The translations under genes were made by a program, and so were the position numbers. From Prochlorococcus sp. AG-402-N10 (lineage in GTDB: Bacteria; Cyanobacteriota; Cyanobacteriia; PCC-6307; Cyanobiaceae), in assembly GCA_003216465.1 (NCBI GenBank), contig QCIU01000001.1, positions 1-64,000 of the forward strand: 64,000 nucleotides of DNA, written 5' to 3'. Numbering within the stretch: the first letter of the stretch is position 1; every line of letters begins with the position of its first letter. The notes below the pieces were generated by a model that saw only the letters and a program-made list of their open reading frames with translations, was not told where the DNA came from and did no database searches. Positions 10,503-13,099 of the stretch are shown here, piece by piece.

Positions 10503-11660
10503 CTAAGAACGAACTTGAACTGGCATAACTAGATAAGTAAAAGCGGTAAAATCATCTTTAGGAACTAGAACAGCAGGTGTTGTAGGAAGATTACATTTTA
10601 GAATTACACTTTCACTTGCAATAACTTTTAATCCTTCCAAAAGATATCTAACGTTAAAAGCAATATCAAATTTCTCAACATCAGATGCAACTGGTAGTGA
10701 TTCATTTGCATTTCCAATATCTTGAGCATCTGCACTAATTAGAGCTAAATCTTTATCTTCCAATTTAATTTTTACAACACTACTTTGTTGATCTGCTACA
10801 ACAGCTATTCTTTCTAGAGCTTCGATTAGTTGTTTTGTATTAAATGTGAAAAGTTTCGAAAACTCATCAGGTATTAATTGAGAATAATTTGGATAAGTTC
10901 CTTCAAGAGTTCTAGTAGTAATAATCTGATTAGTAGAAATAAAAACAACTTGACCCTTATCATAAAAAAGTTTGATTGAATCTTCTGAGGTTTTTAGAAT
11001 AATAAGTTTTTCAATTTCTCTTAAAGATCTAGTTGGAATAGTGACAGATAAATTTTCTTCATTGGAAAATGTAATTTCATTGTCATCAGATTTATCTTTA
11101 TTGTCCATTAAAACAACAGCTAATCTGTGACCGTCGGTTGCAGCTGACTCCAGATATTTCTTTTTAAAAGTAAAATTAACTCCTGTAAGAAGTTGTTTTG
11201 AATCATCACTACTACTTGCAAAGATAGTTAACTTAAGAGCTTTGATAAAAGAACTCGGATCAATATCTAAAGATGTTCCACTCTCAACGAATGGTAAGTT
11301 TGGATAATCATCTGATGATATACCTTTTAAATTAAAAGAACCTCTATCACTTTTAATCAAAATATTATCTGAAGTTTCATCAACATCAAGAGTTACTGGT
11401 GTTTCACTAGGTAATTTATTTACTATTTCTGATAAAAGTTTAGAAGGAATAGTAATAGCTCCGCTTTTTTTTACATTTGCTTCAAAGGATGTTTGTATTC
11501 CTAAATTTAAATCAAACCCAGTAAGACTTATTTTATTAGTACCTTGATCAGCTGTAAGAAGTAAATTTGCCAAAATTGGATGAGTAGGTCTTGTGGCTAC
11601 TGCTTTACCTACCAATTGAATAGCATTATTAAATTCATTTTGATTACAAACAATCTCCAT
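10503..11660 (-). CDS. dnaN: DNA polymerase III sliding clamp (beta subunit)
   Basis: DnaN forms the ring-shaped dimer that tethers the replicative polymerase to DNA. The protein is 385 aa, a typical length. It opens with MEIVCNQNEFNNAIQLVGKA and carries family segments such as ILANLLLTAD, SSDDSKQLLTGVNFTF, SAATDGHRLAVV and the C-terminal AVLVPKDDFTAFTYLVMPVQ. The start is the ATG at 11660; there is no clear Shine-Dalgarno motif upstream. It is the first gene on the minus strand next to the putative origin gap. A promoter driving dnaN, the PRC-like gene, purL and purF should lie within that gap. Confidence 0.98.
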   Translation of the reverse strand: MEIVCNQNEFNNAIQLVGKAVATRPTHPILANLLLTADQGTNKISLTGFDLNLGIQTSFEANVKKSGAITIPSKLLSEIVNKLPSETPVTLDVDETSDNILIKSDRGSFNLKGISSDDYPNLPFVESGTSLDIDPSSFIKALKLTIFASSSDDSKQLLTGVNFTFKKKYLESAATDGHRLAVVLMDNKDKSDDNEITFSNEENLSVTIPTRSLREIEKLIILKTSEDSIKLFYDKGQVVFISTNQIITTRTLEGTYPNYSQLIPDEFSKLFTFNTKQLIEALERIAVVADQQSSVVKIKLEDKDLALISADAQDIGNANESLPVASDVEKFDIAFNVRYLLEGLKVIASESVILKCNLPTTPAVLVPKDDFTAFTYLVMPVQVRS

Positions 11661-11995
11661 CGGACTTTAAAACTTTATCTACATATTAGATATATTTTCT
11701 TGATATTTGCAATTAAAAAATTTTTTCTATTTATCTAATAAATATATTCATTAAATTATCTATATAGTAGTAGTAGAACTTGGGGAAACTGTGGAGAATA
11801 TTAAATATCTTTTATTACAACAATGCTTTATTGAATTTATATAGGTGGAAAAATTTCATTTAATGTTGAAATTTTTATAGTATTTTCATTAACTCATATT
11901 TTTATCAACATTCTATTAATCAGTTTACTTGAATTTTCTACAGGTCTTATATACTTTTTAATAATTTTCCACAGACACTAATTTGTTTGACTAAT
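11661..11995. other. Putative chromosomal replication origin (oriC), dnaN-thrC gap
   Basis: This 335-bp gap has no plausible ORF and is very AT-rich at 11684-11764. It contains six sites that match the DnaA box (TTWTNCACA) perfectly or with one mismatch: TTATCTACA (11675-11683, +), TGTGGAGAA (11790-11798, reverse orientation), GGTGGAAAA (11844-11852, reverse), TTATCAACA (11902-11910, +), TTTTCTACA (11934-11942, +) and the perfect TTTTCCACA (11965-11973, +). Cyanobacterial origins have been placed next to dnaN in the literature I recall. The gap must also hold the dnaN promoter. The origin call combines observed boxes and location; no replication data are available here. Confidence 0.75.
11765..11798 (-). 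promoter_or_regulatory. Candidate DnaA-trio / basal unwinding element
   Basis: The + strand reads TAG four times in a row (11765-11776), then aacttggggaaac (11777-11789), then TGTGGAGAA (11790-11798), the reverse complement of a DnaA-box-like TTCTCCACA. Read on the minus strand this is box, then GC-richer spacer, then CTACTACTACTA, then a long AT stretch. That is the layout of the basal unwinding system described in Bacillus subtilis, where DnaA moves from the box onto single-stranded 3'-GAT-5' trios. The box itself has one mismatch at position 3. Function here is inference from layout. Confidence 0.55.
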
Positions 11996-13099
11996 TTAAT
12001 ATCCTAATATTTTGGTAATATTTTTTAAAGAAGGTTCTAAATTTTTCCTAAAAATAGCGTCATTATTTTTAATTGCACAATCTGGATCTTTTAATCCGTT
12101 ACCAGTTAAGACACAAACAATATTAGATTCTTTTTTTATTCTATTTTTGTTCTTAATTAATCCAGCTACTGAAGCTGCGCTAGCTGGCTCACAAAATATT
12201 CCTTCTTTAGCAAGAATTTTATAAGCATTAATAATTTCTTCGTCACTAACGGATTGGAAATCCCCTTTGCTTTCTTTTTTAACTAATTTTGCTTTTTCTC
12301 TATTTACAGGATTTCCAATCCTAATAGCGGTCGCTATTGTATTAGGATCTTCAACTATAATATTTTTTACTAGGGGAGCTGAACCTTCAGACTGAAAACC
12401 CATCATAATAGGCAATTTTAAACTTCTTTTTATTTTTGAATATTCTTTAAAGCCCATCCAATAAGCGGTTATATTTCCTGCATTTCCCATTGGAATACAA
12501 AGCCAGTCAGGTGCAAGACCTAGGTCATCTACTATTTCAAAAGCAGCGGTTTTTTGACCTTGTATTCGATATGGATTAACAGAGTTCACAAGATCTATTG
12601 GATATTCAGAGGATAATTGCCTTACAATTTCTAAAGCCTTATCAAAATTTCCTTGTATTGAAATTATTTCGGCACCATACATTAATGCTTGAGCAAGTTT
12701 TCCTTGTGCTACAAATCCATCAGGAATTAAAACATACGATTTTAAACCACCCCTAGAGGCATAGGCAGCAGCAGCAGCAGAGGTATTTCCTGTACTTGCG
12801 CAAATTACTGCATCACTACCTTCTTCTTTAGCCTTACTTATAGCCATTGTCATTCCTCTATCCTTAAAAGATCCAGTTGGATTTAAACCATCATATTTTA
12901 AATAAATTTTAGTATCATTACCTATTAAATTACTTATTGATTCACTGTAAATTAAAGGGGTATTTCCTTCATTCAGAGATACAATAGGAGTTTTTGATGA
13001 TACCGGTAGATATTGTCTATAAGCATTAATTAAACCAGGCCATTTTTTCTTTTTATAATTAAACCTGAACTTATTTTTAACTATATTTAGTAACGACAT
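11996..13099 (-). CDS. thrC: Threonine synthase
   Basis: ThrC converts O-phosphohomoserine to threonine with PLP. The 367-aa protein is the short form used by many bacteria and cyanobacteria. The PLP-lysine motif NPTGSFKDRGMTMA lies near residue 75, ASTGNTSAAAAAYASRGG follows, and the PLP-phosphate loop PMGNAGNITAYW is near residue 205. It begins with an ATG 5 nt after the upstream DUF1400 gene ends, and its stop borders the putative origin gap. Both flanking genes of that gap (dnaN and thrC) are transcribed on the minus strand. Confidence 0.95.
   Translation of the reverse strand: MSLLNIVKNKFRFNYKKKKWPGLINAYRQYLPVSSKTPIVSLNEGNTPLIYSESISNLIGNDTKIYLKYDGLNPTGSFKDRGMTMAISKAKEEGSDAVICASTGNTSAAAAAYASRGGLKSYVLIPDGFVAQGKLAQALMYGAEIISIQGNFDKALEIVRQLSSEYPIDLVNSVNPYRIQGQKTAAFEIVDDLGLAPDWLCIPMGNAGNITAYWMGFKEYSKIKRSLKLPIMMGFQSEGSAPLVKNIIVEDPNTIATAIRIGNPVNREKAKLVKKESKGDFQSVSDEEIINAYKILAKEGIFCEPASAASVAGLIKNKNRIKKESNIVCVLTGNGLKDPDCAIKNNDAIFRKNLEPSLKNITKILGY

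Follow-up and report, generated by a model that had tools for sequence, protein, structure and literature searches.

A DnaA-trio element beside dnaN as the putative basal unwinding system of a Prochlorococcus chromosome origin

The basal unwinding system (BUS) is a known kind of origin element, and the DnaA of Synechococcus elongatus separates the strands of its own scaffold in vitro, a reaction that needs both DnaA boxes and DnaA-trios (PMC8287927). In Bacillus subtilis, a DnaA oligomer starts on two co-oriented boxes and takes hold of two bases per 3'-GAT-5' trio, the first and the second (PMC10721633). The G is captured by Arg202 and Glu228 and the A, through its amine, by Asn187, and the third base is flanked by Ile190 and Ile193 (PMC10721633). 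Alanine at Asn187 or Arg202 causes a severe growth defect in B. subtilis, and none of the five capture residues is universally conserved (PMC10721633). The published BUS rule calls for one box with up to 2 mismatches and another with up to 4, a spacer of 0–16 bp, most commonly 13, and at least three DnaA-trios with a middle A, located on the strand opposite that of the boxes; the spacer between box and trios averaged 4 bp in the published training set (PMC8287927). DnaA-independence has been described in certain cyanobacterial groups (Ohbayashi 2020, PMC7198777).

Prochlorococcus origins have been placed between dnaN and thrC (PMC2836286). In the descriptions of predicted oriC covered here, no trios are assigned to Prochlorococcus; the DoriC tables, which carry trio predictions, may list one. 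In the literature searched, no publication joined DnaA-trio with Prochlorococcus.

Anatomy and conservation of the element

The window analyzed here is a 64,000-nucleotide stretch of the Prochlorococcus sp. AG-402-N10 genome. Its putative oriC is an intergenic region of 335 nt and 79% AT (11661..11995) between dnaN, encoding the DNA polymerase III beta clamp (10503..11660, minus strand), and thrC, encoding threonine synthase (11996..13099, minus strand); both gene names come from the first-pass annotation, and that of thrC also from PMC2836286. Read along the minus strand, the element consists of box 1, box 2, the spacer AGTT, the array CTACTACTACTA, and then 81 nt of AT-rich DNA toward dnaN. 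Box 1, the trio-distal box TTCTCCACA (11790..11798, minus strand; plus-strand letters TGTGGAGAA), differs from the cyanobacterial box TTTTCCACA by one mismatch, lies 13 nt from the first trio, and aligns with the corresponding box of relatives. Abutting it is box 2, GTTTCCCCA (11781..11789, minus strand), which has two mismatches to TTTTCCACA and is separated from the first trio by the 4-nt AGTT (11777..11780, minus strand). The four DnaA-trios occupy 11765..11776 (CTACTACTACTA on the minus strand, TAGTAGTAGTAG on the plus strand, with AACTTGGGGAAAC following at 11777–11789), and the plus strand, 3'-GATGATGATGAT-5', is the strand that DnaA would capture as four 3'-GAT-5' units, each with a middle A. 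The adjoining tract (11684..11764) is 88.9% AT, a value reached by 0.1% of the 81-nt stretches in the window; it is the presumed unwinding region and presumably also holds the dnaN leader or promoter. On the thrC side lie the DnaA-box-like sites TTTTCCACC (11844..11852, minus strand) and TTTTCTACA (11934..11942, plus strand), each with one mismatch, and an exact cyanobacterial DnaA box, TTTTCCACA (11965..11973, plus strand). The gap thus holds four boxes with at most one mismatch, box 1 included, versus 0.12 expected from the rest of the window. The window's own abutting boxes are degenerate, with one and two mismatches, which counts against a BUS reading.

The four TAG trios, the reverse-oriented box-like TGTGGAGAA with its one mismatch, and the AT-rich tract of about 80 nt had all been proposed in the first-pass annotation at exactly these positions. 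The 13-nt spacer that it placed between box and trios has the extent claimed (11777–11789), but it is not a plain spacer: the aligned layout of relatives, for example TTTTCCACA-GTTTCCACA-4 nt-CTACTACTACTA, identifies it as a second, degenerate box followed by 4 nt. The annotation had also likened the arrangement to the Bacillus unwinding system. The order and polarity bear this out, with the same succession of box, box, 4 nt, trios, and AT-rich DNA in 59 loci of the family, but the system is not confined to Bacillus, in vitro BUS unwinding being known for S. elongatus DnaA (PMC8287927).

Chance expectations were determined for the repeat and for the whole arrangement. Four consecutive TAG units occur once in the window and in 0 of 100 shuffles, and the whole genome holds 3 copies of (TAG)4/(CTA)4 versus 8 of a reversed control pattern. 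The repeat by itself is weak evidence; the arrangement carries the case. Of 1000 random 335-nt stretches drawn from the window, none satisfied a strict rule (a box with at most 2 mismatches, 0–16 nt, and CTACTACTA), and of 1000 dinucleotide-shuffled versions of the intergenic region, one did. The permissive BUS rule, coded here to accept two alternative standard boxes and to scan both strands, and hence looser than the original, was passed by 763 of 1000 random 335-nt stretches and by 811 of 1000 shuffles of the gap. Since most random stretches of this AT-rich window pass, about three-quarters of them, passing proves little, and BUS calls need the backing of conservation.

The element is kept between related genomes. 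Within the genus, we examined the best 80 of 171 named loci and 30 loci from a genus search (window's own among the 30) that matched dnaN in 203 of 266 genomes; the larger locus set contains 24 duplicate pairs. All 110 loci, a number that counts the window's own and the duplicates, had at least two CTA units starting 115–139 nt upstream of dnaN. For the 80 named loci, themselves the best of 171, the best 12-mer of this stretch agreed with CTACTACTACTA at 12 positions in 67, at 11 in 12, and at 10 in one. Among 92 distinct upstream regions (117 loci), CTA was found at trios 1, 2, 3, and 4 in 91, 91, 81, and 88 regions, respectively. Column conservation was 0.92–1.00 over the trios versus 0.43–0.95 over 60 columns of the AT-rich flank, so the trios do not vary freely; free variation between close strains was the observation that the first-pass annotation had named as fatal to its proposal. 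The TCCACA columns of box 1 and the CCACA columns of box 2 were conserved at 0.97–0.99, and box 2 read GTTTCCACA in 24 and GTTCCCACA in 33 of the 92 regions. One row (L111, whose contig starts inside box 1) was misplaced in this tabulation and was later positioned by its CTA repeats. Box 1 is nearer by one base in L022 (and in its duplicate, L107, from G097).

In other genera of the family, 59 loci were examined: the 20 best-ranked outside the genus, from a search with a dnaN match in 184 of 201 genomes, 12 from another search, and 27 picked to cover further genera. The box-box-4 nt-trio layout was the best fit in 59 of 59, with CTA as the first trio in 55 and CTT in 4; the finder yields a best fit in every case and favors loci with C at the start of a trio and identity to CTACTACTACTA. 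The order, the polarity, and the AT-rich flank were kept throughout, the boxes being degenerate in several GC-rich loci, and the element lay within about 215 nt of dnaN.

For the phylum, we used a profile (R1) trained on 38 elements, the window's copy included and partly elements upstream of dnaN. In the window's genome it gave one strong match (E 7.8e-9, the window's copy being a training row), with the next at 0.256. At E ≤ 1e-4, 42 of 244 phylum genomes matched: 23 of 24 in the family, 15 of 90 others in the class (12 families), and 4 of 130 outside it. Eight of the 15 class matches and all 4 outside the class were absent from the training set (12 of 19). At this threshold, the profile found no match in 75 of 90 genomes that belong to the class but not to the family, or in 126 of 130 from outside the class; in searches over more than 40 genomes, weak matches may be lost. 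The family genome that was missed (G270) has a degenerate copy (E 0.126). The four genomes outside the class, G482, G474, G460, and G503, have strong matches, and the layout may therefore predate the window's class. In two class families (f7 and f11; L188, L189, L191, L209, and L210), tandem TTTTCCACA boxes were observed 2 or 3 nt apart, and CTA trios were not found upstream of dnaN in these five loci.

The distribution of dnaA itself was also surveyed. A search for the DnaA C-terminal domain gave no match in 18 of the 244 phylum genomes, among them G494, which gave a partial DnaA match in another search. None of the 42 genomes with a strong BUS match is among these 18 (Fisher p 0.049, relatedness ignored). 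A DnaN tree of 104 rows, built by a quick method and with several long branches, covered 18 of 24 family and 86 of 90 class genomes. On it, all 12 rows lacking dnaA fell among the BUS-negative ones, dnaA state changed at least 5 times, and an independent-pairs test of the linkage had no power. That loss of the BUS explains loss of dnaA is a lead only. The BUS-poor groups look like the DnaA-independent groups of PMC7198777, a correspondence that we infer.

Position of the element relative to dnaN and the origin

Three genomes allowed the element to be separated from dnaN, the two being at least 0.1 Mb apart in each. In G483, the element lies at C1:1859, 0.5 kb after dnaA, and dnaN at C1:3.08 Mb; the positions of element, dnaN, and dnaA are 2.339, 2.447, and 0.61 Mb in G545 and 0.391, 0.697, and 1.71 Mb in G625. 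Counting boxes with up to one mismatch within about 1.5 kb on each side gives 13, 12, and 12 for the three detached elements, respectively; the origin of T. elongatus BP-1 has 12 boxes and flanking genes of unknown function (PMC4674748). The element therefore appears to go with the origin, not with dnaN: constant company with dnaN, as expected of a dnaN promoter or leader, was not found in these three genomes.

GC skew was assessed in a relative (G033), whose single contig of 1,657,990 bases has dnaN at position 174, by twenty 20-kb samples at a resolution of about 80 kb. From the dnaN end to about 0.65 Mb, skew was positive or close to zero; beyond this point, as far as the last sample at 1.58 Mb, it was negative or close to zero. 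The sign changes near 0.65 Mb and again near the dnaN end, the latter, at the resolution of about 80 kb, being the switch that marks an origin. The first-pass annotation had named an origin elsewhere as its second refuting observation, and this coarse check gave no sign of one. The skew, the cluster of boxes in the gap, and the published placement (PMC2836286) are consistent with an element inside the chromosome origin.

A second trio array, TAGTAGTAGTAG in the opposite orientation, was seen in the detached origins L265 (1501–1570, G545) and L264 and, altered, in L241. AT-rich DNA separates it from the first array, about 20 bp away, which looks as though DnaA could capture both strands. A downstream TAGTAG within 80 nt occurred in 10 of 170 upstream loci screened (1 of 114 in the genus, 7 of 49 in the family, and 2 of 7 in the class), and the inverted array was rejected as part of the general element on this count.

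Variation of the trios and of the DnaA capture pocket

The 236 trios of the 59 family elements carry natural substitutions. The first base was C in 234, a figure that is partly by construction because the finder rewards C at trio starts. On the box strand, the middle T changed to G in 45, to C in 3, and to A in 2, and the third-position A changed to G in 47, to T in 5, and to C in 1. Transversions thus made up 47 of 50 changes at the captured middle base, versus transitions in 47 of 53 at the uncaptured third base (Fisher p 7e-19, relatedness ignored); the finder treats middle G, C, and A alike, so this middle-base preference is not by construction. Seen from the trio strand, the middle A is mainly replaced by C; the amine is thereby retained, and this is the replacement best tolerated by B. 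subtilis both in vitro and in vivo (PMC10721633). Judged from these alignments, trio variation in the family fits the published rules of nucleobase capture.

The number of middle-base changes rose with local GC content (rho 0.77), measured over up to 1 kb upstream of dnaN and not over the genome. Parsimony on a 38-row DnaN tree required at least 4, 4, and 7 changes at the middle positions of trios 2, 3, and 4, respectively, the minimum for trio 3 including two T-to-A rows, and this repetition indicates that middle-base substitution evolved repeatedly. In 26 of the family genomes, chosen as GC-rich, the middle base changed to G in 39 cases, to C in 3, and to A in 2, so that 39 of 44 changes are to C on the trio strand. 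The GC-rich family loci that show this pattern, mostly T to G and hardly ever T to C on the box strand, are L125–L129, L134, L135, L138, L140, L144–L146, L148–L150, L166–L170, L174–L177, and L182. We know of no report of a natural A-to-C trio substitution. The comparison is an evolutionary test of nucleobase capture: evolution mostly chose C, the base that structure and genetics allow, and the uncaptured neighbor changed mostly by ordinary transitions.

The window's DnaA was compared with that of B. subtilis at the same pocket. Ile203, Ile206, Glu241, and Arg277 match B. subtilis Ile190, Ile193, Glu228, and Arg264, but Ser200 stands for Asn187 and Lys215 for Arg202, a difference at two of the five capture residues that counts against the BUS reading. 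In 57 DnaA loci from the family and class, Asn, Ile, Ile, Arg, and Glu were present in 56, the exception being the window's genome. Among 29 more DnaAs of the genus, the 28 closest (90–95% identical; G033 included) have Ser and Lys and the 29th has Asn and Arg; of 25 further DnaA pieces, 24 have Asn and Arg and one (G024) has Ser and Lys; and all five residues are kept in 26 of 26 GC-rich genomes. In total, 30 DnaAs, all of the genus and including the window's (L351, L408–L435, and L446), carry Ser/Lys, with the two Ile and the Glu kept, versus 107 other cyanobacterial DnaAs in which all five residues, Asn and Arg included, are kept. The G024 protein (L446) is 98% identical to the window's DnaA over 100 residues and 87% over the whole protein; recombination within dnaA could account for the mismatch. 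In a separate genus of the family (g9; G273 and G327), DnaA is 51% identical to the query, versus 64–76% for the other full-length family matches outside the window's genus, and the dnaA frame of G273 contains a TAG; the initiator there is possibly relaxed or replaced.

Among genus genomes with both DnaA and origin element at hand, a trio with a non-T middle base on the box strand occurred in 6 of 23 with Ser/Lys versus 0 of 26 with Asn/Arg (p 0.007, relatedness ignored). The six changes (four CAA, one TAA, and one CCA) leave the trio strand with T or G, which lack the amine; in the window itself, all four trios are canonical. An amine-less middle change was also found in five GC-rich Asn/Arg genomes, which speaks against co-evolution. 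That pocket and trios are co-evolving, with relaxed origin-opening specificity in the window's Prochlorococcus clade, is a tentative reading to which we give rather less than even credence, and since the link comes mostly from one clade, it is a lead rather than proof. If it is true, evolution of the base-reading code used by the origin opener can be seen in progress in picocyanobacteria: the trio base changed in the GC-rich relatives, which kept a Bacillus-type pocket, and the reader itself (Asn to Ser and Arg to Lys) changed in the window's clade. Natural DnaA pocket variants are now on hand for assay. The altered pocket and the mostly A-to-C middle change of the GC-rich relatives both look new.

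Alternative explanations and relation to described systems

The repeats and boxes might instead form a conserved dnaN promoter or leader, for example one autoregulated by DnaA, and not an unwinding site. The close placement of the element upstream of dnaN in genus and family would suit this explanation, and the region must also contain the dnaN promoter. However, a sigma-70-type scan found 3 sites versus a shuffle mean of 4.4 (cyanobacterial promoters may not fit such a scan), and in three genomes the element sits at least 0.1 Mb from dnaN and amid box clusters, in G545 and G625 also far from dnaA. This detachment disfavors the promoter or leader reading, which we regard as highly improbable. 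A chance microsatellite, a (TAG)n run that happened to lie beside a box-like word and was kept through recent ancestry, draws on the 3 genomic copies of (CTA)4, which alone is not rare, and on the ease with which random stretches pass the permissive rule as coded. Against it, none of 1000 random stretches matched the strict pattern, and phase and spacing are fixed across the family and in distant families where the flanks have drifted. Conservation disfavors chance to the point that we consider it exceedingly unlikely.

The trios could also be bystanders at an origin opened by loop-back or ATP-DnaA sites or by the AT-rich tract at large. Three more box-like sites beyond the element, in both orientations, and the several opening modes recorded among other origins (Ori-Finder 2022) leave this idea some room, yet selection for AT content alone would not give trio columns so much better conserved than their flank, and strand separation by S. 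elongatus DnaA in vitro requires both boxes and trios (PMC8287927). We hold it to be very unlikely. The anatomy, the conservation, the rough coincidence of a skew switch in a relative, the independence from dnaN in some relatives, and a recognizable, though partly altered, capture pocket in DnaA were observed directly, and on these sequence comparisons, the element is very probably the BUS of the Prochlorococcus chromosome origin.

For such a BUS, the steps of binding, filament growth, base capture, melting, and helicase loading can be sketched by analogy with the Bacillus and S. elongatus work. DnaA domain IV would bind the two abutting boxes (11781–11798), with the box 2 protomer sitting 4 bp from the trio array. 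More protomers would join along the plus strand, covering the four 3'-GAT-5' trios, with every inter-protomer pocket holding the G and A of one trio. The plus strand would thereby be stripped from its partner, opening would spread into the AT-rich tract toward dnaN, and the helicase would be loaded there. The element offers a base-precise, testable putative origin-opening site for a dominant ocean phototroph.

An AT-rich flank adjoins the BUS of B. subtilis, as it does the Prochlorococcus element. The wider arrangement is likewise that of the B. subtilis BUS at incC (DnaA-box 6/7 and DnaA-trios), with two co-oriented boxes, a short spacer, and 3'-GAT-5' repeats (PMC8287927, PMC10721633, PMC6669920). 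Unlike that system, the Prochlorococcus element has four trios, whereas six engage DnaA in the B. subtilis structure (PMC10721633); its boxes abut; it lies beside dnaN, with dnaA on another contig; and the equivalents of Asn187 and Arg202 are Ser and Lys in the window's clade. It resembles the oriC and BUS of S. elongatus, a member of the same phylum, in lying near dnaN (PMC7198777) and in the box TTTTCCACA (PMC4674748). It also agrees with the Prochlorococcus and other cyanobacterial oriC regions predicted in DoriC and Ori-Finder, which are adjacent to dnaN and carry TTTTCCACA boxes in most cyanobacteria (PMC6323995, PMC4674748, PMC2836286).
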